Origin: Whalleya microplaca
Taxonomy: Eukaryota; Ascomycota; Sordariomycetes; Xylariales; Xylariaceae
Direction of reading: 5' to 3'
Length of the DNA: 64,000 bases
NCBI GenBank assembly: GCA_022497155.1
Contig: MU385718.1
Location: 62,001 to 126,000, forward strand
Numbering within the stretch: the stretch's first letter is position 1; the number at the start of each line of letters is the position of its first letter. A program made the position numbers and the translations under genes. Positions 25,843 through 63,834 of the stretch are shown here, one piece after another. A model generated the notes under the pieces. The model saw only the letters and a list, made by a program, of their open reading frames with translations, was not told where the DNA came from and did not search any database.

Positions 25843-28800
25843 ATGGTAAGTTTTGATTCGTCTCTGTTTATTTCGTCCCATAAGCAGGCCGAACGCGCCA
25901 TCTCGTCTCTGGCAATCTGGGGGTTCAGCGGACCCGGCATCGGGCGGCCGCATTTCCGTCCAAGAATAAGTGTAGCTTTGCTAACCGCCACTCCCGCGTA
26001 GGGCTCAATCAACAAACAGATATCGCGGTACGAAACGACGGCAGTCTACACCCATCCCGATGCCAAAGTCGACATCGTTCTAGTTCATGGCCTGAATGGC
26101 GATCCAGAAAAGACATGGACTGCCAAAAACGGCACGTTCTGGCCCGCCGACTTGTTACCAACGTCCTTAAGGAGTGCACATGCGAATGTCCTCGTATATG
26201 GGTATAATGCCGATGTGTATTCGAAGAAACACGGCTCTAACCCCAGCGATAACTTCATATATATGCACGCACAAACCCTGATAACATCCCTTACGCACTA
26301 CCGGAAAGATGAGCAAACGTCGCAGAATCCAATAATATGGGTCTGCCATAGTCTTGGTGGGATTTTGGTCAAACGTGCTCTGTTGTATTCGAATGACTTG
26401 CGCATGTCACAGCATGAGGACTACCGCTCAATCTATGTTTCTACGTACGGGATCATTTTCCTCGGTACGCCGCATACGGGGTCGGACATAGCGACATGGG
26501 GCACAATGTTACAGGGAATGTCAGATGCTGTAGTGCCCAGAACCTTCTTTCAGTCCGAGTCGGTGCTCTTGAAGACACTGAAGAGAGATAACGAGACCCT
26601 ACAGAACATCAACAATCATTTTCTCGACATCTATCAGCGGTTCAAAATTATCATGGCGCATGAGAACCACAAGACGGATATGAAAGGGACAAGAATGCTT
26701 ATAGTCGATGCAAGTTCAGCTAGTCCGCAGCTACCGGGGGTTACGTATTACGCGATCGAAGCAACTCATTCTGGCATGTGCAAGTTCGAGAACAGAAATG
26801 CGCCGGGATACAGAACTGTGGCGACGGTACTTAGGGACTGGGTCGGAGATGCACCGGACGTTATTCATACCCGATGGAGAGTGGAAGATGACGAGAAGCT
26901 GGCTAGGGCCAAGCATGAAATTGAGGAGAGGATGAAACCATGGGTAGGTTATCCCAGTCGATCGCACCTCTCCGAAGGATAATGTCAGTACCTAACATCT
27001 AGTTAGATTGATTCGCAACGCATTCAGCATACAGGTCAAGGATCCAGTAGGTCACCAGCTTTACCCCTTTTGGAGAATGGTTCAGATCATTCCCACGATC
27101 GGCTTCTTGGGAGCGCATTATTTCAAGACGTTGAATTCCCTTTTGAGATAGAAGAGATAGTTGATGGTCATCGGGCATAAGCAATAGGGCATAAAATACT
27201 GAGGATCTTTGGCTGATTGTTTGGCGTTCTGTAGTTCCACAAAACAATAATGATACCACATTACCACCACCACAAGATCCCTCGAAGCTCGAGGATCATT
27301 CTAGACCCCTCATTACCGGACCAGTAACACCAAACCAGTCTCAGGAAGATATCGAATATCCGTCCCAAAACTCGAAGTCAGACCATGACTCCACTCGAGA
27401 GCCTATCTTCGTCAAGCCGACAGTTTTCCGGCCTAACACGTATTTCAAGGGTCGAGACAAGGAGCTAAAGCTGTTGCATAAGATGCTGATGGACCGTAAA
27501 ATAAGATCTATAGGGACTTCATCCGTTCTAATCCAAAGTATGCCCGGTGGAGGAAAGACTCACCTAGCACGGCAATATGTCTTCCGACACAAGTACGATT
27601 ACCCGGGTGGTATATTCTGGATTAGAGCTAAATCCCAAACTGAAATGAATTATGGCTACTGGGACATTGCGAAGACGGCAGGTCTAGATACGGACGGATT
27701 ACATGATGATCAAAGGATGGTAAAGGCTGTCCAAGCATGGTTGAACAGTCACGACAACTGGCTGCTTATTCTTGATGGCATTCATTTCGACCTTCCGGAT
27801 CTCGAGCTCTATATCCCCTTCGCAAGGAACACCAGTATTATATATACTTCAACGGAGCGCACACCGGGAGAGGATTACCAGTTCGATAACCCGCAAATCA
27901 TGGCGCTAGATTTGCTGACGAAGGAAGAGGCGCGGGAATTGCTCTTTGAGGAAATGGGGAAGAAGCAACCGTACACCCAAGATGATTTGAAACGCGCCGA
28001 AGAACTTGTCAAACTGATGGATTGCCTACCGCTTATGATTCACGTCGCGGCATTGCAGCTCAAAACCACGAGGGAGCCGTTAGCCAAATATTTGAGGTCG
28101 TACCAAAGTCGTCCGAAGGTGGGCAACTTACCGGCGTACCGTGCAGTCCTCGAGCAGCTTCAACATAGAGGCGCTAGTCCTGCACTGAACTTGATGTCTC
28201 TGTTAGCTTTCTATGGCACCCATATCCCTGTGGAGATGATCATTCTTGGTAAGTTTCGAGATATCAGAAGCTATAGCGCTCCGTGCTAATGGTTCCTCCA
28301 GGTGCGAAAGGGTTAGGCAGGGAAACACCGCTCAAATCTATAGACCCCGAAACAAGAAGAATTTCGTTGAACAATACTTTCAAGACCCTTATAGCATTCG
28401 CTCTCGTTGAGAGAAATGAGAACAATGAAGCCTCTACAGCGAGTTCGCAGAGTACCCGCAGTGTTGACATGGGCCAGGACCATCTCGATATCCTGAGGGT
28501 CCATGGAATAGTCCAAGCATTTTTCGTTGACGCTCTTGTGGAGAATAAGCAACTTCAGTTCTGGCTCGAGCGAGCGACCAGTGTATTTTGCCAAGCCTTC
28601 GACGTAAGCGATCACAAAGTCGATGAAGACCCGCAAACAGGAATGCCGGAGGACTACCGACGGTTTTCGATTCACGGCGAAAGGCTATTGTCTCACATAA
28701 ACCGTTTCGAGCGAAGGTATCCGGAGTTAAACCAGTGCCGGGAACTAGTTGAATCACGATTAGAGACTATCGACAGGCGGATTAATCAACTCACTAAGCG

Positions 28801-46373: not shown

Positions 46374-49255
46374 CGTAGTAACACCTATCTTCGAGCAGAT
46401 TGGGGGTTCTTAAGTTCCCAGCGTGAGGGCCGCGCCACCACGGTATAATAACAGCCATTTTCTGCTAGACACGAAGCGTGTATGACGTAGGTGTTCGTAG
46501 ATGGATGACCGCTAGACGCTAGACGTTGAGATAGAAGTTTCTCTCGGGTATGAATGTGCGAGGTTGTACAGATCTAGGCAACTTTAATCTTGGTGATTCA
46601 TTGACTCCTTGAGGCTCAAGTTGGCATCACTGGACTGACTTGGTCCGAGCTTGGCGTCGGGAACTCTAACTTGACCTCAGGGGGTATCTGCTTGCCAGTC
46701 ATTGGACACAACCTTAACAAGTCAGAACTCTAAAACTAGAACGATCTGAAGTAAGATATTTCGTGTGCCTGTGTAGGATCTCGTCCCATGTCAAACGACG
46801 TGGCTGAGCAAAGCCTCAACATTTTAAGACGTCGAGCCTAATTGATAATTCAACCCTCGAACATCATCCGTTGTTCATGTATCTATACCCATAACATCTT
46901 GTTCGTCTAGGTATATAACTTTACCTGTAACATGTGACTCTTCATAGTTAAACTTTCAAACAGGCTTGCTATCGAATGTGACGTATTGACTGGTCGCCCA
47001 GATAGGAGCCATGTAGATTATTACCATTATGTTGAACTTAGTAAAAAGCTGATTGCTGTCTAAGCTATAGATTATACTTTAGCAAGTAGTCATTCATCTT
47101 GTATCCTAGCAACTAGGTATGACATCTAGACGGTCTGTAGAGAGTCTATATAGCATAGAGTGGGCGAGCCATGGATAGCTAATAGATTGTATTTTCACAT
47201 CTTTACTACATGTACTATCTCGTATACATCCGAACTATTCTTGACACTACATACTATCTACAGTATCATCGCCGTCACCCATGCTGTATATTACCATCCA
47301 AGTTCCTCGCATAGGTGTTGTACTACAGCTGCTCTCACTGTTAAAGTTACGCGTAAAATTACCCCTATTAGGATATTCCGAATAACTATGGGAAGATCAC
47401 TTCGACAATACAGGATTCAATTCCAGTTGACAAGCTGGTTGCAATCGGGCAGCATCTAAATGACGATTACACATCCAATCACTATCATAGAATCCAAACA
47501 AGTCTAACAAGTGCCACTCCGAGGTACATGTCCGAAGGTATGATATATAGCTATATGTCTTGATCTTGTGTCCACAAGAGGCTCTTATGGAATTGAATTG
47601 GTCACAGCCATTCAAATTCACATGCCCTTGCACAATGCTTTCTACATAGTCCCTAAAGGTGCCCTGCCATTTAACCGAATTCACTCAGCCTTCATAAATA
47701 TTCGTACCTATCACCAACTCAGAAACCTTAGAACCTGTATGCTTCAACCAATGCTAGCAATGGAAACGCCTGCGCAGCTATAACAAAATCACGTCATTTA
47801 CCTTGGTATCATATATACAATGAATATTGAAGCGGAGTAATAAGATATAATAATTAATGACTCATTTGATTTTACATCAAACTTGATTTCAACAATTAGG
47901 ACTATGAGTGACTCATTTCGATTTACATGATGGATTTAAGGTAGAAATCTAATTCTTCCTCATATCTATAAAACGGCCGTATCACCCTTTTATATAATAG
48001 AAACAACGGATCAGGTACACCTTGAGATAGAATATTCATCTTTTTCCAATCTTCATACCAACTAGTAAACTATCTGAGGTCCGACACTACATTTTAAGGA
48101 CCTGCCAATTTCCAGGGACATATGTTTCCGCCACAACTCTCTATTTTCTGGATTCCTTCCTTTTTGACACCAGAACCTTAGATTAACCGAAGGTCAAACC
48201 AATAGCATGGCAACAATATTTAATAGTTTGCTAGGTTCCTTCCTTGACAAGACTACGATCAGGACCTGAAGTCAGACCCAAATGGCAACTGCAACAATGA
48301 TTGCCTGTTTTCACCTAATGTTTCATGCAGTATGTAACCCAACCGTTTTAGCCTTATAATACATGTATACATGTACCCTTGGCACAATTTGTGTCGGCTA
48401 GTACTCACTTCACGTTCGTTTTACGTGAATACACCATTTCTCCCCCTGACAAATATTTTATATCTTTCAAAATCTTCACTTCTATAAGCTTGCAACTCTT
48501 GCAATTCTTGACGCATGGTTAGCTATTTTACTTTTGTTACCTGCAACATGGAATATTCTCCTTTTCTCTTGTCCATCACCTCTTCCCATAAACCTATCAC
48601 TCCTATCACCGACATGGACAATATACGATTAAAAAATAGATCTAAATCCTTAAGATCTTCCCACTTTCTCTAGAACAGTTCACTATTGTTACGAAATTCT
48701 CTCTCGATGAAATCTCTAACAATGTCTGACTAGGACTCGAGTACTTCCATTTTAAAAGTACACTAATTCCCCCTTCATGTTTAGAATCACCTATCTTTTA
48801 AACTTTTCACTATATATAAATCACTCGGTTGATTTAATACCTATTCTGGCGTTGACAACTCACTTCAACGTCACTGCAACAACACAGTCAACAATTTCTA
48901 AAACGAAGATACCTGGGTACCTGAAGACTTTTGACACCTAAGCAATTAGGAAACTGGAGCAACCTAGAAACCTAGGCAGCTCATTCATCCGGAAGCAAAG
49001 TGGTTTGCCTAGCCTAGACTTTTCAGCTTTGCAATTCGCACATTCTTCTTCCATCTTTTGACTTCCATAATTCTCCCACACTACCACTCTTCCCAACCTG
49101 CCCATCTTGTCAACATAACATTAGTGCCACCACCACTACTGTTGACCATCACCAATACTGCCGATCAGCACCAGTACTGTTGCCCATCCATCACCAATAC
49201 TCTTGGCCATACACCATCAAGACTATTGACATTCACCAACACCGTTGACGTCAAG
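46374..49255. other. AT-rich interval with a decayed ORF
   Basis: No intact gene. Coding-like fragments interrupted by stops and frameshifts occur on the minus strand at about 47.9-48.6 kb. The last 130 bases before the RRM-like gene carry imperfect repeats of a CATCACCAATACTG-like unit, probably in its 5' leader. Confidence 0.45.
47940..48525 (-). pseudogene. Decayed coding sequence, family unknown
   Basis: On the minus strand, runs of plausible protein are broken by stops and frame changes: MRQELQELQAYRSEDFERYK (near 48515-48455), RFWCQKGRNPENRELWRKHM (near 48180-48120) and WYEDWKKMNILSQGVPDPLF (near 48055-47995). The surrounding DNA is AT-rich. A mutated transposon gene is my best guess; I do not recognise the family. 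Confidence 0.3.
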
Positions 49256-50296
49256 ATGGATCACAACATTGATCGCAGCATTGATCGACTACCGGCTCGG
49301 TTCAATCGGGCTTTTCAGACTCGTAACTGGCGCGCTGCTAGAACCACCCTACCAACTTCACTGTCGCCTAACATGCCGTCTTCCTCTCCCCAAGGCTCTC
49401 GCGTCTCTCCTGTCCCAGCGCGCATCTCCATTTCTCACAACTACCCCGGCGACACTACCAATGCCCACAACCCCGATGCTGAGATCCCCGAGCATTCCAG
49501 CTGCTCGATTTTCATCACCAATCTGCCACCCGACTGCACAATCAATATGCTCCTGGGTTCTATCCGCGATGCCGGCAAAGTGTACCAGTCAAGCATCCAC
49601 CCTCCCCGTATGGATCGCCCCACCAGTGCCGGCAAGGTGGTATTCTGGGATCGCGCGGGCCTCGACAGATTCTTGGTCAAGGTGCGTCAAGGTGAGTTCA
49701 TCGTCGGCGACTATGTACCCAACATCACGATGAACCGCGTTCGCGCTCACGAGCAGCCCCCCTTGATATTGTCTCGAGCCGTCCAGGTTCAGGGTCCGTC
49801 GCAGATCGTGACCCCATCATACATGGAGCGTTTCTTCCAGAAGCACTTCACTTATGACCTTAATGAGGTCAGAGTGATGTTTCACAGCGAGCAGCGTGTG
49901 ACCACCCGTATCGAGTTCCGCTTCGCGTCCTACCACGCACAAGCTGCCGCCGCCTGGAAGTGGATTCAATGGGCTAAGAACAGCAAACAAGAGGCTGTTT
50001 ACGACATGGATCCTATGGAGATCGACCTCTGGCGTTATGTCGAAGTCTTCTGGGGCCGAGACCCTTGTGCTCCGCTGAGGCATGTTGCTCAATACCCTCC
50101 TGGACGGGGCTTCCCTCAGCAAGGCATTGCGCAGCAAAGCACTGTCCAGCAAGCTGTTGTCCAGCCAGGTTCTCCGCAGTCAGATGCTTCTCATCTTGAT
50201 GTTCCTGAGTGGCGTGGCTCTGATTTAGACGTTGAGCTAGATGAGCGTCAGTCATATGTGTCTGAATCAGACCTGTCTCATGCAGACACTTCCTAG
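49256..50296 (+). CDS. RRM-like RNA-binding protein (paralogue of the gene at 0.5 kb)
   Basis: 346 residues in one exon from the ATG at 49256 (AAGATGG context); the frame is open upstream but without an ATG. Residues about 84-160 match the RRM-like module of the first gene: SIFITNLPPDC, GKVYQ, then GKVVFWDRAG and GDYVPNITMNR. The second conserved block (VQVQGPSQIV through FWGRDPCAP, about 180-280) also matches, including the phenylalanine-rich FFQKHFTYD. The N-terminus is much shorter than in the paralogue. The Gln/Ser/Asp-rich C-terminal tail is unique to this copy. RNP2 is recognisable but RNP1 is diverged, so RNA binding is inferred from fold only. It stands alone in a gene-poor area. Confidence 0.72.
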   Translation: MDHNIDRSIDRLPARFNRAFQTRNWRAARTTLPTSLSPNMPSSSPQGSRVSPVPARISISHNYPGDTTNAHNPDAEIPEHSSCSIFITNLPPDCTINMLLGSIRDAGKVYQSSIHPPRMDRPTSAGKVVFWDRAGLDRFLVKVRQGEFIVGDYVPNITMNRVRAHEQPPLILSRAVQVQGPSQIVTPSYMERFFQKHFTYDLNEVRVMFHSEQRVTTRIEFRFASYHAQAAAAWKWIQWAKNSKQEAVYDMDPMEIDLWRYVEVFWGRDPCAPLRHVAQYPPGRGFPQQGIAQQSTVQQAVVQPGSPQSDASHLDVPEWRGSDLDVELDERQSYVSESDLSHADTS

Positions 50297-52848: not shown

Positions 52849-53589
52849 CTAGTATCGATCGAATCTAACGCCATTGCATTGATCACCGCGTCCTCTTTTC
52901 GTATTTCTAGCATACTTCCCGGCAAAGCGTTTCCCTACCGCCCCAATACGCACGACTTGGCCTGATGCCTGATCACCATCGCCCCTGTGTAAGTTGCGAA
53001 GTACCTCAAAATTACTAGTAATATCTAGTACTCTTTCATCTGCTATAGCACTTGAAGTTCCATTGTCAATCCCATTGACTTGTTCGCCTATTCCTTCATG
53101 AACATTATCTTGAAACTGAGCTAGTGGGAAACTCAGTGGAGTTTCTCGGTATAATTCGCAGTGGCTAAGCTCTTCCATTGTGTAAAAGGACTTTCCTGAA
53201 AATATGCTAGGGAATGCTCTCTGATCATTATGCTTTCCTAGCACAATCTCATCTGATGCCTTGCAGGTGCTGAGTAGTCTCTGAAGCTTAGCATCATAGA
53301 AAGCATTGGAATCAGGAGTAATAGTAATGCTTGGCTTGTGACTTTTTGGCACATCTTCGTCTTGAGGCATTCGTAGCGTGGGCTTGTTCTTCTTCCGAGG
53401 CTGTTCTCCCTGTCTTATAGGGCGATTGTCCCCAGACCCAGAGATGGCCCCAGCCCTTAGCACAAAGGAAGCATTGGATGCCGACTGAGCAGAAGCATTT
53501 ATGGGTAATCCGCCGCAAGTAGCATGACGTCGAGCCCGATTGCGTTTGTGTTTGTTGGAGCGAGTGTGGTTGCGGGAACGTTTTGCCAT
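52849..53589 (-). CDS. Basic protein with paired N-x3-G-x-G-x-Q-x2-G motifs
   Basis: 246 residues, single exon, start ATG at 53589. The N-terminus (residues 1-25) is dense in Arg/Lys/His and looks like a nuclear or nucleic-acid-binding signal. The middle is polar and unrecognised. The C-terminal 60 residues carry two copies of the motif at 199-210 (NLHRGDGDQASG) and 229-240 (NTKRGRGDQCNG), 30 residues apart, preceded by ITSNFEV and linked through FAGKY. The gene at 55216-56160 has the same order and spacing (ITSKFNV ... FAGNY ...). The rest of the two proteins is unrelated, so the C-terminus is a shared module. An amyloid-type signalling motif is inferred from its repeated Asn/Gly/Gln pattern and terminal position. 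Confidence 0.6.
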   Translation of the reverse strand: MAKRSRNHTRSNKHKRNRARRHATCGGLPINASAQSASNASFVLRAGAISGSGDNRPIRQGEQPRKKNKPTLRMPQDEDVPKSHKPSITITPDSNAFYDAKLQRLLSTCKASDEIVLGKHNDQRAFPSIFSGKSFYTMEELSHCELYRETPLSFPLAQFQDNVHEGIGEQVNGIDNGTSSAIADERVLDITSNFEVLRNLHRGDGDQASGQVVRIGAVGKRFAGKYARNTKRGRGDQCNGVRFDRY

Positions 53590-55215
53590 TGGTGTAGCTG
53601 ATCAAAAATGAAGTGGGACGTATGTAGTACTGGTGTCTTGTTGGAGTCTTATAGGACAGAAATATCTAGACTTCCACAGGAGGCCCAATATTCTTGGTAA
53701 TCCTTGAAATTTAGATGGACTGGTGTCGATGGGACAGGCTGTAATATGGAAGGGGATGACTTCCAAAACGACAGAGGAAAGGAGGGGTAATTGTAGGTCT
53801 ATTGAAAGACCTCATATGTGACGTGGCCGATACCGATTCCTTTACCTCCGGGTCTACCTTTAAGAATTAGGCCTTGGACGGCTGAACTCAGAGTGCCGTC
53901 CCCAGCTTGTACGACCACCAATGCACTGCGTTGTAACCCTACTGATACTGCCTGCGCCGGAGAGAATGTCATTCAGACAGTCCAGACCTTGATGTACTAT
54001 GACGTGGCTTGATGATTGAATAGATGGGGGCACATCTAAATATAAGATTAGAACAAGGTTTGATGGAAGGAATTAGCGACTCTTCTGACTGTGTCAAGCC
54101 TACATACTATGCAAAGGATGATAGACTCAATGTACAGCGTAGGAGACTAAAAATAAAACGTCCAGGCTGTCTCTATCAATAGTATAAGATCCTCGATATT
54201 TTCCAGGGGACACTGTTCTGAGGCACATGAAGCCGCACGTAGAGGGGCTCAAAATGGGTACAGCCTACCACATAGAATACATAGTGTCCATAGAAGTTGC
54301 TGGGAAGTAAGCGCTACCACGAGACATATGCATAGATCTTGTCATCACCTTGATTGAACGTAAACTTGAAAGAGCTTACAAAGGTGCTCCGGGCTGTCAC
54401 CAATCCATAATCTAATCTACAGCAATATGTACTAGGAGCGGAAAGCAGAAGGCCAAGAGATCGGCTATCTTGTATGGATAGTTCTCTAGGTAGCCTTTCT
54501 GCTTAGTTCTATGCACACTCACTGCATTACCTCCTCTCTTCCTAGGATCCTCCAGTGGTAATGTGCTTACATAAGGCAGTTCATATATAAGATATTGTTA
54601 GGCTTGGATGAAATTGAACAATAGCGCATTGGAAGCAAGAGTGTGTGTAGTATTGGCAATCAAAAACAAGAAAAAGGTGCTCCGTAAGCATCGGTATAGG
54701 AATAAGGATCCCGATGCTCTGGTGATACAACAGGATACATTGATATACCATTGGTCCGTCTGAGAGATTTCTTGTCTGTGCTGGCCAAACTCCTTCCATG
54801 CCAACATTGCTATCACTGTTCCACTACAGGCTTGGACGTTTGAAGCTCGTATATTTCATATGGTACTCCTGTAACGAAGCCGTTACCACAGGTCTTGATT
54901 TGAAATAACAAAAGGCGTGAAAGGTAAAATACTTAGATTGATCGCTGGCTAGCAAAGAGGGACTATCTAAGGGACAGCGGATTATAGTCCTTTTTATATC
55001 TGAATAGCTTCCTAGTAACTAAGACTGGATTGCCAAGCCACTAGGGCCTTGGCAACCACCTGGTTGCCAAGCCATTATCCCTTGGCAATCACTTGGTTGC
55101 CAAGCCATTTCCTCTTGGCAACCATAAATCACGTGGTAGCTGGTTGCGGGGATATTCAGGAATGGGTGGTTGTAACAACTCCCAACTTGAAGCATCCGTT
55201 CCAATGCAATGATAC
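53590..55215. other. Spacer with solo LTR 1
   Basis: No gene recognised between the two motif-bearing minus-strand genes. The right end holds a solo LTR (54870-55177). Confidence 0.5.
54870..55177. mobile_element. Solo LTR, copy 1 (308 bp)
   Basis: Begins TGTAACGAAGCC and ends GGTTGTAACA, is flanked by a 5-bp target duplication ACTCC (54865-54869 and 55178-55182), and is about 90% identical to 61008-61284. It contains an extra ~31-bp tandem unit of the TTGCCAAGCC / CTTGGCAA type compared with copy 2. It ends 38 bp past the stop codon of the gene at 55216-56160. Confidence 0.85.
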
Positions 55216-56160
55216 CTACAACCGCAGTCCGATGACTTGGTCGCCTTTGTTGGTCTTTATATTGCCCTTGTAATTACCAGCGAATGGCATAGGCAAGCAT
55301 CCCTTTTTTATATACTGGCCCACGACCTGATCTCCCACACCACTCATTTTGTTGTTCATCACGTTAAATTTGGAAGTAATCTTAAGTAGTTGCTTGCTAG
55401 TAACTCGATTTTCTTTGCTTTCGATCATGGTACCGAGGATCTGCATTCCAGCTCCGGTATGATGATTGTTCTGGAGCTCGACAGAAGGAGCATCGGTATC
55501 GGGCTTCGTACTGTTGGAGTCGAACTGACATCCGTATTCCGCTTCTTCATCCTCTACTCTAGGAAACGGACTGCTGTGAAATTCGGCAGAAGCGGGTGGG
55601 GTTGAGGACATGGCAGAAGTGTAGCCACTATCGCTCGATTCGAAGCCGGTACGTAGGCATTCAGGTAACTCTTGTTTGCTGTTCTTCGTCATGTCCATGT
55701 TGTAGTTGTTAGAGTTCTCAGTTAAATGGTGCGCTGATTGTATGCGGAGGCGCTCAACCTGTACTCGAATGTCACCTAGCACAGTTGAGTTTGAATTGGC
55801 AATATAGAGCAACAATGTAATTTTTTTCTTTTCGAGTAAACTGAATATTTCGCCGTAGTGCTTTTGCTTAACAGCGAATGTTATTGATGCGAGAAAGCGA
55901 TTCCTATTTTGATAATCGCGAGGCACCTGAATAGCCTCGATAGTTCCAATAAGCTCAGTGGTGTATCTTTTAATCTCGGTTGTTTGCAAGGAGGGGTTTG
56001 TAGCGACTTCACGGAGGACGCATTGTGATTCTTGGATGTCATCTAAGTATCTTCTTAAGGTAGCAGTAGCCCCTATGACCGTGCGGAAAAAGGCGCAGAT
56101 AAGTAAGCAATAATCCGCAGCTTGTGCTACAGCGACAATTGTTCCAAGTAACTCTGCCAT
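55216..56160 (-). CDS. HeLo-like helical protein with three C-terminal amyloid-like motifs
   Basis: 314 residues, single exon, ATG at 56160. Residues 1-140 are predicted helical and have the look of fungal HeLo-like / SesA-type N-terminal domains: a hydrophobic first helix (LLGTIVAVAQAADYCLLICAFF), a conserved-looking NPSLQT, and KKKITLLLYIANS near 120. These domains act as membrane-disrupting or signalling effectors in fungal cell death. A disordered Ser/Pro linker follows. The C-terminus carries three copies of the 12-residue motif at 232-243, 270-281 and 300-311, the last ending 3 residues from the C-terminus. The last two share flanks with the gene at 52849-53589. The domain layout (N-terminal helical effector, C-terminal repeat motif) is that of HET-s-type amyloid-controlled effectors; family assignment is by pattern only. 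Confidence 0.6.
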   Translation of the reverse strand: MAELLGTIVAVAQAADYCLLICAFFRTVIGATATLRRYLDDIQESQCVLREVATNPSLQTTEIKRYTTELIGTIEAIQVPRDYQNRNRFLASITFAVKQKHYGEIFSLLEKKKITLLLYIANSNSTVLGDIRVQVERLRIQSAHHLTENSNNYNMDMTKNSKQELPECLRTGFESSDSGYTSAMSSTPPASAEFHSSPFPRVEDEEAEYGCQFDSNSTKPDTDAPSVELQNNHHTGAGMQILGTMIESKENRVTSKQLLKITSKFNVMNNKMSGVGDQVVGQYIKKGCLPMPFAGNYKGNIKTNKGDQVIGLRL

Positions 56161-57023
56161 ACAGCTTTCTTAGATATAAGAAGCAGACCTCGTTTAACTG
56201 AGAAATCCCGAACCGAGATTCGAAAGGATTGGTACTACCTAGGTTCAAAAGACAGACGCATATATATAGGTATCTCATAATATGCAGAGGCTCAGTACCT
56301 CTATAAGTGGGTATGGGGTCCTCCGAGTTTTTATTTCACTACATAATACAAATTCCGTTGTAATGCAAGAGCAACACAGGTTACGCTACATATAATCTTA
56401 CGTAATTGAGGCATTGCTAGGCATAATTAAGTGATAATTGTCAAACTTCACTGCATTGTCGGAGCCTTTTCTACAAGAAAGTGAAAGTCTAGCCAAGGCA
56501 AAGTAAGGCAACAGAAATATAGGACAATTGCATGCTTGAAACAAACACACCATATGTTTAAATAAAGCCCAGGCCAATCGCGAAGTCCGAGAATCCCACC
56601 CACCTTCTCCTTTATCCGGAAGCGAGTAATTGATGAAACTTGTTGGGGCTACTTTGCTATAGTGCCACTGGAAAGTGCTTTTTGGGGCGTTAATAACAAG
56701 CTGAAATGCAGTTCGAGGATGGCTACGGCTGTAGCCAGTGCCAAAAATGACACCCTACGCATCACATTGGGGTCTTGAACTATATGAAGCGTATCGCAAA
56801 GGCTGATTTTGAAGTAAGGCGACTAAAGGAAAACGTAGCTGCCCAGTAGCAATACATAGACGAACTTATTTTACATATTCCAGACCTCTTCTGGAGGTAG
56901 CAAAGCTGACAGGCGGCCAAGGGCACAAGATTCCCATCTAGGACTCATAGACGTAGATAAAGCGCTTCACTACTCATCACCTTACGAATCAAGAGGTAAG
57001 TTGAGCTTTCGTGGCCAGAATCG
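56161..57023. other. Divergent promoter region between motif genes
   Basis: 863 bp between the minus-strand HeLo-like gene and the plus-strand membrane protein, which are transcribed away from each other. No gene was seen; the promoters of both lie here. Confidence 0.5.
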
Positions 57024-57683
57024 ATGACACAGCAGGACGGTCAAAATAGGGCTATAGAGCCTCCACCAAGGGCATACTTACATGACAACCAAAATTTTGG
57101 CGATGACCAAGTTATTGGGATAAAGGCAGATATTTTCGGTGGTATTCACAACTGGGTTCAAAGCCACACGGGCGCGGTTACTATCGGCATTGTGGCTATT
57201 GTAACATTGGGCTTGACTCTTGGACTTGTATTGGGCTTGAATGGAGCAAGCAAGTGAGTTGCATCTGCCTTACCTGTGTGCCCCGCGCTACCACCAATAC
57301 ATACCATTATCTGCAACCACTAACCATGGTCCAACACCAATAGAACATCGTCCAACGCGTCACCATCTCCGGGCGCTGCGCCCCCCAGCACCGTGCCGAC
57401 CTCTTCGCCAGTGTCTCAGATTGCTCCGATGACAACCCCGGTGGCAGAGAGTTGTACATACGGGTGTTTAAAAGAGTATTTGGAGACAGGTAGCTGCGAT
57501 TCGGGATGTCCTGGAGAGCTTTGTACCGATGATAATGGCTGCCTCGACCCATATCCTTGCATCACACACATATGTTGTCGTACTGGTTGTAAGCCAGGCT
57601 GGAGCTGCAGTTCCGAATGCGCAGATGGCTTAACATGCGTATCAGCCTCGGCTGGTACGGCAGCTTCAACATGTGTGGTATAA
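57024..57683 (+). CDS. Membrane protein: cytosolic motif tail, one TM helix, Cys-rich ectodomain
   Basis: Two exons, 57024-57253 and 57344-57683, sum to 570 nt (189 residues). The 90-bp intron has donor GTGAGT, branch CACTAAC and acceptor ATAG. Residues 1-50 lack a signal peptide and contain NQNFGDDQVIG at 22-32, a one-residue-shorter form of the neighbours' motif. A strong Gly/Leu/Ile/Val membrane helix spans 51-72. A Ser/Pro/Thr-rich stalk follows (about 75-112), then a 77-residue module with 14 cysteines, including a CC pair. With a short N-terminal tail and no cleavable signal, a type II-like orientation (tail inside, Cys module outside) is likely but not proven. I do not recognise the Cys module; a lectin, chitin-binding or receptor-ligand domain are options. 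It reads as a small receptor whose cytosolic tail could nucleate the neighbours' motifs. Confidence 0.65.
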
Positions 57684-60600
57684 TTTGGAGTGATGTTTTT
57701 TAATTACGATCTAAATGAAGATAGTTTGTCCAGAAAATCACAGGAATTTATACCATAGACAATAGATTAGACTAATACTAAGTTGTATTATGTATACTCA
57801 ATTTAGTGTCCCCGACTTTAGGTATTGTAGAAAGAAGAGAGTTGGCGAAAGCATAGCATCAGCACAAATTGAGGCTATTCTTTCCCCATAAGCAATCTCC
57901 ATGGTTATTATATGGTAAATCAATATGTCTATTACCCCTTGCCTCTACGCTTAATTAACCCTTAAGTAGTTAAATACCTAAGCAAGCTTTGATATTAAAG
58001 TAAATGATCAAGACTAGCCTCAATTATGAGGAACGAATACAACGGCTATACTACCAGCTCTAATGATGACTTTTTCTCGGAGTACTCTTTGGTGAAATTG
58101 GCTTAATGTTAAGATGCTCCTTATGGTGTCGTCATGCCCCTTAGGTGTTTGGCATTTCTTGTACATCAGAAATGATCGAGGGTTCACGTATAGCTAGTAA
58201 TTATGAGACACTTTCTACCACGAGAGATACCTAGATTCACATGAAAGGCGACGAAATATGTTGGTTGAATGGATAATATTGAGCATTCAATATTCGACAC
58301 CGTCGATGTTCTATGTAGGTATGACTCTAGAGGTGCTTTGGAGGGGAGTTTCGAGGATCAGATTAGTTTCCTACGATTGATGACTGTAGTGTTTGGTCGC
58401 AAGATTATAATGATAGAGGAGTGTATAAATGATTATTGCATAACACTTAATGAGGCATTGGGTTTAATAGATAGGTAACGCGCAAGACTAAGAGGGTGTA
58501 TACAGAAACTTAAAACAAAACGTAGCCCTGAAGTTAAGTAGAAAGACGTTCGGAATGCTACCTTAATTACATAGTATTTAATATAAGAACGGATTTGCGA
58601 TTTGCTTATAACTTGATTAGTTGACGAAGACCAAAAGTTTGCTAAGTTTATTATACATTATAATCACTTTATTTCCTTCCTTTTACCCGCTTTTTTCTTA
58701 TCCTTTCATATTCAGTTGTTTGAAAGTGTGTATTGGCGTAAACAACCTCTGCGTATCTATTAGGCAATGTGTAGTAGCCTAGAGTAGTCCCGGTAGACTA
58801 TTTTGCCGGCTTTGGTTTATCAGCACAATTTTGACATTTGGTGGTACGATCGGTCATCATCACCGAGTCCCGGCCGTCTGCCTCGTGGTATCCCTGGCCG
58901 CACTGCGTTTGTAGTGTGACTGAAATTACATTCCCGCAATCGGAGCAAAGTTTCCGATACCACGTACACATAGTAGTTATTAAGGTGTGGAAATAGGGAG
59001 AGATTTAGTCTCTGGCCTGGCCTTGTCAATGAATATTATGGAGGTTCGCAGTGAAGCGCAGTACAAGTGGTATTTCTCAGTTTTGCTAAAGGACTGTATA
59101 CAACTAAGTATGCTCGTAGAACGGGTCAAACTGGTAGAATTTATAACTACCCCTGGCTAGCTCTGAGTCAGCGGTGCCACTTTTTCAGTCAAATAACAAT
59201 TTGACTCAACTTGACTCGACTCGATGCTTGTCAAGTCGAGTCATCTCTTATATGTACAATACTGTGAGGTGCCTTGGGCTGTATCAACCCCTGAATCTCA
59301 AATCAACAGACTTGATCCCTTGTTTAGTAAAACCGACAACCCACCAACCAGAATGATCAGAGAAAGGCCCCCCAATGGACATCTCCAAATCATTCCTGAA
59401 TGGCGTGGTAGAGTGCCGGAAATCATTCTATCGGGGGATATTATAGAAACTTGAGTTTTGATGTATGCTTCTGATACCATGTGAATAGTGTCTGCGCTCA
59501 GATGCCCAATGTCAGTAACTTCTATACCTAGATGATGAATCGTGTAGGGATTTGCGCAGTTAATTCAGACATCGCTAAGTAGCTCGTTCCCTTTGATGAG
59601 CTCAATTGACCCCAATCCGAAGGGACCTGTTGGTATGTTTGCAGTAGGGAGTTGGTTTGCGGTTGCGGACAGGGGCACACGGACTGCCAAGAAGCTGTTC
59701 TGCCGAATGCTAATATCTTCGTGTCTGCAGAGAGAAAGGCACACGCTCGATGAGCTGTCTCGCGATCTTGCTATGACTACCATGGTACGCCCCGACGTAA
59801 CACTATCCCCGTGGTCACCCGATATCATGAACACCCTTCCACGGACAAACCACGACGAGATTCGCATCCGGAAGTTTGGCTTAGCATCGCTTCTGATTGT
59901 TGACACTATCTCTTTAGGAAGAAGATAAATATGGGAAGATTCGCGCTCATCTGCAGTATACTTGTCAGATGATTCAGAGTATGTCTCGCCTCTGGTTCCT
60001 TGCTTCTAGTTAGGAAGTCGTGATCTCTTTGTAATGACAGACAGATGTCCATCGCCAACATTGTAGGAAGGTGACTAACGCTGGTTGCCCATCATTGCAC
60101 AGGATAAACCTCCTGTTCTGTTGTGCATGTAGTTGTGGCCATTGGATCTATGATCTGGCCGAGTATTGACTAGGTTGTAAATATGAATGGTATTACCAGG
60201 GGCCCTCAGAGAACGTTTCATGCTAGTACTATTTGGTAGTTGAACTGGTTCTTCGTCCATTGTGCCCTATGTTATCGCGTCCAAGGAGGTGAACTGGTCG
60301 TGCCATTGGCGCTCATCTGCAAGGACCTTTGGACTCCCTCATATGATGTGGATGGGCTGACAGCTTGTATCAATTGTTGCCCCCAAGACTCGTGTCCACT
60401 GTGGTGGTATGTTGCAGCGTGCGCCTCAGAACGGGGATCCTCAGTTGACTACCAAACGCATTTGGTTCAGAACCTGACCAAATCTCCGTCGCTTCTGTTG
60501 GTCCTTTTCTTTGCGCTCATGGAGCAATTGGGATGGAGGAGTGGAGATAGCATAGGTAACGTATCACATCCCCAAGCGAGCCCGGAGGGAAAACACTCAA

Positions 60601-61007
60601 TGTTCGCTCCAACCTTTCACCGATGCTTACAAGTACGGACAGATAGGCAGCTGGTACATTGCGGCTCAAATACAGTACAATCCCTTTCAGAAAGCAAGAA
60701 GTGGGGTAGACATTCCTATTTGAGTAATCTAAGCCTCGTATGTAATACATGTAGTTTAATGCTACGATGTAAGCGCTCTACCTAGCTAGGGGTCAGACAT
60801 CACCATTCCCGATAGATCATCCGTCCATCGGCCAATCCCGTTTTAGCTCACCAATTCTAGCTCCGCTCACCGAAACTATGGGGAGCCAATCACGTAAGCT
60901 CAATTACCGCTGTCGGGAAGGTATGAAGGGGCATCTGACGTAATAACCGAGTTTTGTTAGGTATTCTATTATAATTGAAAGTCAGGCCGTGCGTCCGAAT
61001 ATAACAT
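57684..61007. other. Repeat-rich interval without an intact gene
   Basis: AT-rich from 57.7 to 58.7 kb. A coding-like fragment lies at 59593-59928. Other frames (58269-58478 and 60240-60785) have ATGs but no recognisable domain and no supporting context. A short inverted repeat with stem TGACTCGACT lies at about 59213-59244. Confidence 0.4.
59593..59928 (+). CDS. Possible exon or gene fragment, family unknown
   Basis: About 111 codons of coherent protein-like sequence (DPNPKGPVGMFAVGSWF, then HTLDELSRDLAMTTMVRPDV and DEIRIRKFGLASLL) with balanced amino-acid use and a possible acceptor (CTAAGTAG) just upstream. An in-frame ATG lies at 59599. It may be the last exon of a truncated gene; I could not find the rest. 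Confidence 0.3.
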   Translation: MMSSIDPNPKGPVGMFAVGSWFAVADRGTRTAKKLFCRMLISSCLQRERHTLDELSRDLAMTTMVRPDVTLSPWSPDIMNTLPRTNHDEIRIRKFGLASLLIVDTISLGRR

Positions 61008-61284
61008 TGTAACGAAGCCGTTACCACAGGTCTTGATTTGAAATAACAAAAGGCGTGAAAGGTAAAATACTTAGATTGATCGCTGGCTAGCAAAGAGAGA
61101 CTATCTAAGGGACGGCGAAATACAGTCCTTTTATATCTGAATAGCTTCCTAGTAAATGGAACTTGATTGCCAAGCCGCTAAGGGCCTTGGCAACCATCTG
61201 GTTGCCAAGCCACTATCCCTCTTGGCAACCATAAATCACGTGGTAGCTGGTTGCGGGGATATTCAGGAATAGGTGGTTGTAACA
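61008..61284. mobile_element. Solo LTR, copy 2 (277 bp)
   Basis: Same family as 54870-55177: begins TGTAACGAAGCC, ends GGTTGTAACA, and has a 5-bp target duplication AACAT (61003-61007 and 61285-61289). One internal tandem unit fewer than copy 1. It contains the same ATCACGTGGTAGCTGG block near its right end. Confidence 0.85.
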
Positions 61285-61689
61285 AACATCAACTACATAT
61301 TCATCTTGATTGTTTGGACCAGTCCCATCTTTCAGCACAGGCCGTGAGCTTGTTGCAGCTTGATTAAAAGTCAATTGGACTACTACAGTACCGAACTTCA
61401 GGCCTCACCCAGGACACGCGGGTAGCAGCTGAACGTGTACCTAGGATCAAATATAGACAGCTTTAGTATGGACATACAGGATACACGTATAATAGGCTTC
61501 TTTCGTACTTACGTACAATGAATTTTTATGGCGTTAGAGTGGACAAGGTAAGGCTGGGAAAAAACCACCTAATGACTCAGGCCTGCAGGTAGCTATCAGC
61601 TGGGATGCATAGAAGCAGTCTCGATGGAAATAGAAGATACTACATTTTTATGCGATTTAAGTAAAGAGCATACACGTGTAAAATCGGTA

Positions 61690-62018
61690 CTTGCTATGGC
61701 TAATTCGCCTCGACACGCCCCTAGGGCGTTGCGCTTTAACTAATAAAAAGCCTATATAATATAAAAATTTCCGATATATATCCGCTACCACCTTAAATAT
61801 TAATAAATAAATATAGATTTATTAAGTATATATATTCTTGTTTTAAATATATAATAGTGCGTAATAAAAATACTTTAACTTATATAATAAATTATACTAA
61901 AAGCTAAGTCGCTTTTATACTCTACTGATATATATCGGAATTTTTATATTACTAGGGTCTTTTACTAGTTAAAGCGTAACGCCCTAAGGGCGTATCGAGG
62001 CGAATTAGCCATAGCAAG
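61690..62018. mobile_element. Long-TIR MITE (Tc1/mariner-type, TA target duplication)
   Basis: The 329-bp element starts CTTGCTATGGCTAATTCGCC and ends with its reverse complement; the terminal inverted repeats extend about 95 bp at roughly 90% identity. TA dinucleotides flank both ends (61688-61689 and 62019-62020). The interior is almost pure A/T and has no coding capacity. Several arm differences are C/T or G/A, consistent with RIP or deamination. Confidence 0.85.
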
Positions 62019-62854
62019 TATATATAATGCAACGTTGATAGGGCGACGTCGACACCAATTTCTCTATCAGTAAATGGTCTTCCAGACCCAGGACAATATG
62101 CATACCATGAGGTTTACCGAAAAACGATATTCTTTGCATTATGATTCCTGGATACTGTTGCAGAGGCGAAAAGCTGATCAGCATTTTCTCTTGATGCTTT
62201 GAGTTGGAGTGAAGGCCAATGAGAGTATACATCTTGGGTGGCAGTGTCGGAGCCTCACCGAAATTTATGGTATACCAATTGACGCTTCTCAATTGAGCCG
62301 CAAATATGGACTTCATAAAAAGCCGAGGTCTGTCTGGCGACCTCTCTACCGGTTTCCTCGAAGATCAACGGATTCGGTTCGGGATAGACACTGCTTACAG
62401 CAAAACGACTATATGGTGGATATACTTCCTTCGTAGTATATTTTTTCTAGTGAATGGATGTATTATCTCTTAATTTCACACGGCCATTTAAGGCGCTGCT
62501 GACCTTACGCCTCCCTCTACCCTCCCTGACCTCCCTAACTTTAAACTATTCCTTGCTAGGGCCATTAACTCCCTGCCAAAGCTTTTCATAAATATATTCA
62601 TTTATAACTATTTACTGCGTTATTCTGCTTGTTTTTTATCGTAACTAGTAACTGATTTATATGTTCCCGCGGCCTAGATGGCTTAGTACAAGAGGGATCC
62701 GCCTTATTGGTGGACCAATGGTGGTCGTGATAGCTTCAACCTATGTCACGCGAAACGTTAGCTCTGTCTCCCAAAAAGGAGGTACTCTAACCGTCCTATA
62801 CACCATAGAAGCGTCGCTGTACTTAGGTAGTTAGGACTCGGACGTAAACAAATT

Positions 62855-62882
62855 CATCATCGTCATCATCATTATCATCATC
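62855..62882. repeat. Imperfect (CAT)n microsatellite
   Basis: About nine CAT/CGT/TAT-type triplets in a row. Confidence 0.8.
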
Positions 62883-63160
62883 AGTGATAGCTTCAAAATA
62901 CGTATTGTAGACTATTATTAAAACAGTACTTATATCTTACTAGTAAAATGTATCGCGGGGAATATATATCCACTATTAAGTGGACTACTGGGCGCTTACA
63001 AAGGTCACGTGTGTATGTATAATGCACCTTAAAAGGACTTTTACAGTACTGTGGAGCACCTAGAATCAGTGTGCTTCGTATGGCGTTTACATATAATCAC
63101 AACAACCCCTCAGTACAACTCAAGTAGTTAGTTAGTTTCATCAACGTTCAACCACCACTT

Positions 63161-63834
63161 TTGCCCACAACTACAGTGAAAATAGCCATTTCACAAAACG
63201 ACCAGAGCCTCTTATCCTTCCGAAAAAAGGCTAGCTGGGCAATACGTGGCAAGAAAAAATTTGATAACTTAATACCTGATCTCGACTTTTTCATCACCGT
63301 TTTGGAGAAAGTGGGCGCCCACTTATTGCAATTGGGTATCGCGAACCTCTACTCTTAATTAAAGTTGGCTATGTGCTAACCACTCCATGAATAGACGAAA
63401 GTGACCACGATACAACATAGGCTCTTAGAATAGAAGGCATTGCAATAACAGAGGGTCACGCTGAAGACACCGCCAGGAAAATGAGCCGACTAACAAGTAC
63501 TGGGACAGAGACAATGCTAGTCCAACAACCAAGGACTCACCCGACCCCTCAAGAAATTAGAGAGGCTGTCCAAGAGAGGATGCAGGCGATCCGGTCATCC
63601 AGCACCCTGTCTTCAAACGCCCAACAAACGACTACCTCAGATAGATCCTCGGCAACACACCATCACTACAAAGGAAACATAGCTAGGGGCGACGCCAAGC
63701 AGTTTTGTGGCGATATTGGACAAGTACCTTCCAATGCAAGAAAGCATTTATATGATAGCAACATTGCGGAAGACCGGGGCATGCAAATTCTGGGAAATCT
63801 TGACATCCAAACGGCCATCAGCTTGTGGGATTGA
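63161..63834 (+). CDS. Truncated HeLo-domain protein with two C-terminal amyloid-like motifs
   Basis: Proposed exons are 63161-63335 (5' end incomplete) and 63434-63834; the join is in frame (intron donor GTATCG, acceptor ATAG). The first segment, FRKKASWAIRGKKKFDNLI followed by EKVG, closely resembles the last helices of the HeLo (HET-s N-terminal) domain, but the first ~120 residues of that domain are not found upstream. After a polar linker the end carries two motif copies, NIARGDAKQFCG and NIAEDRGMQILG, 28 residues apart; GMQILG also occurs in the first copy of the gene at 55216-56160. If the 5' part is truly missing, translation could start at the ATG at 63481 and give a 117-residue motif-only protein. 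Either a degenerate effector or a small motif-only regulator is possible. Confidence 0.5.

Follow-up and report, generated by a model that had tools for sequence, protein, structure and literature searches.

A shared short motif in a predicted membrane protein and its repeat-bearing neighbours points to a candidate amyloid-signalling module in Whalleya microplaca

In a 64-kb stretch of the 48.1 Mb genome of Whalleya microplaca, a xylarialean wood fungus of the Ascomycota (C9:62001-126000; hereafter the window, by whose numbering positions are given), four neighbouring genes, here called genes 1 to 4, share a short motif built on asparagine, glutamine and glycine. Genes 1, 2 and 4 carry it in three, three and two spaced copies at the C-terminus, gene 3 carries a single copy in a short N-terminal tail ahead of a hydrophobic span, and the motif is kept in relatives of genes 2 and 3. 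The fungal amyloid systems described in PMC4518210, PMC9815663 and PMC12881547 are switched by intracellular NOD-like receptors (NLRs). We judge it an even proposition that the present cluster is an amyloid-signalling module in which a membrane receptor takes the place of the NLR.

The pattern N-x3-[GND]-x-[GA]-x-Q-x2-G, scanned in six frames of the 64-kb window, gave eight exact matches and no further ones, all on the coding strand of genes 1, 2 and 4. Seven had been listed in an earlier note on this DNA and were all recovered where it placed them; the eighth, NVHEGIGEQVNG at 53071-53106, had been overlooked, and gene 1 thus has three copies, as gene 2 does. Gene 1 (52849-53589, minus strand; an open reading frame (ORF) of 246 residues) continues with NLHRGDGDQASG at 52960-52995 and NTKRGRGDQCNG at 52870-52905. 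In gene 2 (55216-56160, minus strand; an ORF of 314 residues) the copies, placed by pattern match and by alignment with relatives, are NHHTGAGMQILG (55432-55467), NKMSGVGDQVVG (55318-55353) and NIKTNKGDQVIG (55228-55263). Gene 4 ends in an ORF on the plus strand (63481-63834) with two copies at its C-terminus, NIARGDAKQFCG at 63676-63711 and NIAEDRGMQILG at 63760-63795. The copy that the earlier note gave as one residue shorter, NQNFGDDQVIG (57087-57119, plus strand), indeed lies in the tail of gene 3 once that gene is spliced. Together, the eight exact copies and the short one span less than 11 kb. Successive copies are 37 and then 30 residues apart in gene 1, 38 and 30 in gene 2 and 28 in gene 4, so that the range of 28-38 residues proposed earlier stands, with the amendment that the C-terminal repeats of gene 1 are tripled rather than paired.

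Such a number of matches is far from what chance would provide: 100 simulated windows of the same dinucleotide make-up held a mean of 0.07 matches per 64 kb (maximum 1), although the comparison of 8 with 0.07 overstates the case, because the pattern was derived from the same copies, and the held-out profile tests described below are fairer. Across the genome, a DNA pattern for G-x-G-D-Q-x-x-G matched 41 times, against 15 for a reversed control; the Asn and the flanking residues were present in only 3 of the 30 matches read in context, all of them in genes 1 and 2 (the remaining 11 were judged from the matched letters alone). Searches of the genome with the proteins likewise placed the gene 1 and gene 2 repeats and gene 3 at this locus only, bar one marginal match to gene 3 on another contig (C59, E 0.83).

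Genes 1 and 2 are related to each other through their C-termini, contrary to the earlier description of the four genes as otherwise unrelated: 33 of 90 residues are identical (37%; E 3e-16 in a single comparison), and the likeness also emerged from the genome search (E 6.6e-11). The three repeats stand in the same order and at the same spacing in both (37 or 38, then 30). Repeats of the same order in different proteins were more alike (0.49) than were repeats of different order (0.36) or repeats within one protein (0.40); the first figure takes in orthologues of gene 2, which are alike in any case, and comparing only gene 1 with the rest leaves a small difference (0.41 versus 0.35). Gene 1 combines a very basic N-terminus with the three copies in its last ~90 residues; it has no Pfam match, and its one NCBIfam match, to VgrG_rel (E 0.005; 15 bits, where the cut-off is 275), was rejected as far under the cut-off. 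A DUF2624 match of gene 2 (E 0.01) was set aside for the same reason.

Relatives were sought in a protein database with genes 2 and 3 as queries. For gene 2 they turned up in Hypoxylon crocopeplum (P0002, 53% identical) and in a metagenome (P0003, 43%), and both proteins retain the Asn, Gln and Gly in all three copies as well as the spacing of gene 2. Among the three proteins, 70 of 147 columns are invariant over the N-terminal region (approximately residues 1-147), compared with 4 of 80 across the variable linker and 28 of 87 over the C-terminal three-repeat region, and gene 2 therefore appears to consist of two parts under constraint with a free linker between them. A search with the repeat region alone returned two proteins from 17 candidates, both already found; it was insensitive, since it missed P0003, which carries the repeats. 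Gene 3 has a relative in Annulohypoxylon nitens (P0005, 59% identical), and conservation in orthologues, on which the earlier note had staked its proposal, was thus observed in P0002, P0003 and P0005 alike.

Gene 3 (57024-57683, plus strand; intron 57254-57343) encodes a single-pass membrane protein of 189 residues in our splice model, whose product is identical to the annotated W. microplaca protein F5B20DRAFT_531246 (P0004) and has no Pfam match. It runs from a short N-terminal tail with the motif through a hydrophobic span (residues 48-76; 57165-57251, plus strand; hydropathy of at least 1.6 in windows of 19), probably a signal anchor, and a Ser/Thr/Pro-rich stalk to a Cys-rich C-terminal part (57453-57680, plus strand). 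In the latter, 58 of 76 residues are identical with A. nitens; 14 of 14 cysteines in P0004 and 14 of 15 in P0005 follow the span. The tail of P0005 carries the motif at full length, NRNDGSGDQVLG, and the short copy of P0004 is for that reason best seen as a local deletion or divergence. Over the motif stretch the two proteins share 10 of 16 residues, against 6 of 12 in what precedes it and 3 of 8 in what follows, a modest difference on small numbers. The earlier placement of the motif on the cytosolic tail of a membrane protein holds as far as the N-terminal tail before the span is concerned; the cytosolic side is suggested by the net charge of P0005 (+3 before the span, -1 after) and by the position of the cysteines beyond the span, which favour an N-inside topology. 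Gene 3 is thus probably a type II membrane protein, with its topology partly inferred. A bacterial promoter scan upstream found nothing, which is uninformative for this fungal gene.

Whether the copies belong together was assessed with profiles built without the tested protein, each score being compared with those of 2000 shuffled versions of the protein. The profile made from the 14 effector copies, with no membrane protein included, gave the A. nitens protein P0005 17.6 bits, a score reached by none of the 2000 shuffles. Gene 1, held out, scored 10.0 bits (0/2000), and gene 2 and its two relatives 10.4-13.0 bits (0/2000 each); the gene 4 copies were the weakest on the effector side (3.3 bits, 8/2000). 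The three copies of gene 1 by themselves also sufficed to detect P0005 (11.5 bits, 0/2000), with lower scores for P0004 (0.7 bits, 40/2000) and gene 4 (1.2 bits, 32/2000). These scores therefore link genes 1 and 2 and the A. nitens tail independently, and the W. microplaca tail by way of P0005; gene 4 is the least certain member. They also bear on the idea that the motif amounts to short matches due to chance or decay, scattered over unrelated genes of a region that bears repeats and has partly decayed. The truncation of gene 4 and the weak scores of its held-out copies, the weakness of the W. microplaca gene 3 tail taken alone and the LTR-like (long terminal repeat) elements nearby would all suit that idea, but it has to face eight exact copies where 0.07 are expected, a motif kept in relatives from other genera and a tail in A. 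nitens that a held-out profile detects. We regard it as highly improbable overall: it is strongly opposed for genes 1-3 and possible for gene 4.

Gene 4 connects the cluster to HeLo, the classic amyloid-controlled death domain. The partial HeLo domain that the earlier note saw there was borne out: a piece at 63188-63316 (plus strand), part of the domain's last third, matches positions 135-176 of the 205 of PF14479 (E 1e-6), or 136-176 in another search. The same piece is 49% identical to residues 151-193, and only those, of a HeLo protein elsewhere in the genome (L005, at C15:25840, where the HeLo protein is followed by a frame with two repeats that by eye are of another HET-s-like kind). For the first two thirds of the domain we found no convincing match anywhere in the window, and candidate introns between the HeLo piece and the motif frame exist, none of them decisive. 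Gene 4 is probably the remnant of a decayed HeLo effector, and because it looks like a remnant we take the live effector to be gene 2, perhaps together with gene 1.

On the reading of the cluster as an amyloid-signalling module with a membrane receptor, the Cys-rich outer domain of gene 3 would sense a ligand and cluster, and the clustered cytosolic motif copies would then nucleate a cross-beta (beta-arch) fold, by analogy with NWD2 and HET-S. That template would convert the three C-terminal repeats of gene 2, and probably those of gene 1, and the conversion would activate or recruit the N-terminal parts of these proteins (in gene 2 a helical domain that may target membranes), with cell death as the putative outcome. 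Gene 4 would once have served this system as a HeLo effector and have since decayed. The proposed trigger is clustering brought about by a ligand outside the cell, because the receptor-side copy sits just before the membrane span. The earlier proposal of a receptor and an effector joined by a shared motif is consistent with the C-terminal repeats, the copy on a membrane protein, the clustering and the conservation, and loses one of its elements, the HeLo-like domain that had been ascribed to the N-terminus of gene 2.

The receptor of fungal amyloid signalling is an NLR, often encoded by a neighbouring gene, in the systems described in PMC4518210, PMC9815663 and PMC12881547, and the cluster could accordingly be a divergent HRAM or HET-s-type system whose NLR lies elsewhere, with the gene 3 copy a decoy, an inhibitor or a later capture. 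The repeat number and linker length would fit HRAM, a HeLo remnant is present, and amyloid signalling between non-adjacent genes has been suspected (PMC9815663). The genome also holds a canonical-looking amyloid pair on contig C44 (L003): a HeLo protein that ends in two HET-s-like repeats (437226) and, at 436198, an NPHP3_N gene with an N-terminal stretch that by eye is similar to those repeats. Yet these HET-s-like repeats do not match the motif profile, and the search for a linked NLR gave no candidate with the motif. Genome searches yielded at least 48 NACHT and at least 78 NPHP3_N matches, none of those listed being on the contig of the cluster (C9). The sole NB-ARC match listed there lies at 27513-28115 of the window, ~25 kb from gene 1, in an NLR-type gene (26002-28289) with an alpha/beta-hydrolase frame followed by NB-ARC, and that gene has no motif-profile match inside. 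Nor did the profile match in 30 NACHT loci (of at least 48) or in 20 upstream stretches of 931 bases, drawn from 43 further places counted by eye in the NACHT and NPHP3_N lists, and no NLR was recognised among the open frames listed for the next 30 kb to the right. We therefore hold a hidden NLR partner to be somewhat improbable.

The motif might instead be a homotypic assembly or scaffolding repeat, non-amyloid in nature, that gathers proteins at the membrane. Its amyloid character is read from the sequence, gene 1 has no recognisable effector domain, and the sole PDB matches of the motif profile, both weak (E 0.49 and 0.69), are to MORN repeats. No MORN model appeared among the Pfam families listed up to E 10, a search in which HMMER filters drop many weak matches, and a spacing of 28-38 residues is unlike MORN repeats, which are contiguous; on these two grounds we rejected MORN as an identity for the motif. 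A match to a known non-amyloid family had been named in advance as a result that would speak against the proposal, and this weak one is all that was found. More generally, when the genes were compared by sequence with Pfam, NCBIfam and PDB, every match other than the HeLo piece of gene 4 fell far short of the cut-off. Effectors that end in short G/N/Q repeats, next to a HeLo remnant, represent by contrast a known amyloid-signalling layout (PMC4518210, PMC9815663), and a non-amyloid scaffold is in our view unlikely.

Several results weigh against the module with a membrane receptor that we prefer. Amyloid formation is a prediction from the sequence. The N-terminal region of gene 2 matches neither Pfam model for HeLo and HeLo-like domains (PF14479 and PF17111), and its alignment by hhalign with four HeLo proteins of the same genome reached a probability of 1% (E 0.052). 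Its AlphaFold2 model has very low confidence (mean predicted local distance difference test (pLDDT) score 39); the helices predicted over most of residues 2-147 and the strands that coincide with Q-x-x-G in each of the three copies may be taken as a hint only. The gene 3 model is no better (mean pLDDT 41), and the charges flanking the span in P0004, 0 before and +1 after, lend no support to an N-inside topology. The 14-copy effector profile that detects P0005 gives P0004 just 0.8 bits, matched or exceeded by 28 of 2000 shuffles. Ordinary whole-protein searches with all four genes left gene 3 and gene 4 unconnected to the rest, and P0005 matched P0002 in BLAST at no better than E 0.013; the link between the membrane gene and the effectors rests on the short motif. 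In the protein database, no other genome was seen to contain a relative of gene 2 together with one of gene 3, the relatives found being from different species. The NLR survey covered approximately 50 of some 75-80 NLR-type loci, so that a distant motif-bearing NLR may exist, and a motif copy split by an intron would escape it, because six-frame scanning ignores introns. Lastly, the motif profile gives 13.2 bits (E 0.03) to an open frame on another contig (L048, C32:307342). It reads GEGDQIVG, 13 residues before the stop of a 31-residue frame, and may represent either the final exon of a further motif gene or a chance match.

The surroundings of the cluster bear traces of repeats. A direct repeat of ~300 bases (54870-55178 and 61008-61285; 92-93% identical) flanks genes 2 and 3, and by eye its ends resemble those of a solo LTR. 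The AT-rich segment at 61690-62017, between what look by eye like inverted repeat arms and with dinucleotide indices of the kind left by repeat-induced point mutation, is probably a transposon relic. Two further frames, 49058-50296 and 423-1904, appear by eye to be mutual relatives with a similar RNA-binding-like central stretch.

Stated in its fullest form, our proposal is that a type II receptor with a Cys-rich ectodomain and a new amyloid motif on its cytosolic tail templates clustered three-repeat effectors, which would make this a fungal amyloid signalling system started at the cell surface, a counterpart of the PGRP-LC arrangement of insects and, as far as we searched, the first fungal case without an NLR; to this full version we give somewhat less than an even chance. 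Within an open-licence literature library (including PMC7889193, PMC12261475 and PMC5485727) we found no fungal amyloid signalling with a transmembrane receptor. If the proposal is true, fungal amyloid signalling could be coupled to extracellular signals, and its likeness to the RHIM signalling that starts from membrane receptors in animals would become concrete. The cluster is small enough to test, comprising a single tail peptide, two repeat regions and a candidate domain for ligand binding.

To place the motif among known classes, published features were scored on 16 copies, with positions numbered as in HRAM so that the Gly is position 19. HRAM has an invariant Gly at 19, hydrophobic residues at 5, 8, 10, 16 and 18 and a preference for Arg or Lys at 15 (PMC4518210). 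The present motif shares the Gly at 19 (16 of 16), F, Y, L or V at position 5 (14 of 16) and a hydrophobic residue or Cys at 18 (13 of 16), and departs from HRAM in having Asn at 8 and Gln at 16 in all 16 copies, a polar residue at 10 in 12 and, in place of the preferred Arg or Lys, an acidic residue at 15 in 11 (Lys in one). Gln at 16, three before the Gly, is found in HRAM5. The layout is also HRAM-like: the repeats stand at the effector C-terminus, the loops (spacing minus 21) come to 7, 9, 16 and 17 residues, within the 6-18 residues of 154 of 155 HRAM cases (PMC4518210), a single copy sits on the receptor-side protein, and a HeLo remnant belongs to the cluster. The likeness of repeats by order has its counterpart too, HRAM repeats grouping by subfamily and then by order (PMC4518210). 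By contrast, genes 1 and 2 have three repeats where HRAM has two, and the receptor-side protein is a membrane protein, with no linked motif-bearing NLR found, whereas an adjacent NLR with one N-terminal copy accompanies 98 of the 155 (PMC4518210). PF11558, matched by 38 of the 155 in the same paper, was not matched by the cluster genes, which is weak evidence, given that the PF11558 search matched no genome at all; the genes had no Pfam match to the sigma motif either, a short model of the sort that may fall to HMMER filters.

PUASM, described for NLR32 in PMC9815663, comes closest in its core: G-x-G-x-Q-x-x-G is exact in 9 of the 16 copies. The full form, FxGxGxQxxGxGxF, differs in its preceding F and following G-x-F, which all 16 copies lack, and the cluster further differs in having no PNP_UDP domain (by Pfam), a motif repeated two or three times and no NLR found. 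The G-hydrophobic-Q-hydrophobic-G core of PP and RHIM (PMC9815663) is absent: Q-x-x-G occurs in 16 of 16 copies, none with a Gly two residues after the Gln. Set side by side in this way, as the earlier note had suggested for HRAM and PP, the motif agrees with HRAM in part and with PP not in its core, and the earlier remark that it could not be matched to a named class stands, HRAM and PUASM each sharing some features and failing on others. The best reading is that it represents a probable undescribed class of HRAM/PUASM-like kind, set apart from HRAM by published features rather than by subfamily profiles. On the effector side, bacterial amyloid signalling sequences (BASS) also occur as two- or threefold repeats (PMC9815663), a likeness drawn from description alone. 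For gene 3, the nearest architectural parallel is PGRP-LC, with the difference of kingdom and domains. PGRP-LC is a type II membrane receptor. In Drosophila it carries an RHIM-like amyloid motif and acts in an antibacterial immune pathway (PMC7885112), and it is this arrangement that the single motif copy in the tail of gene 3 may resemble.

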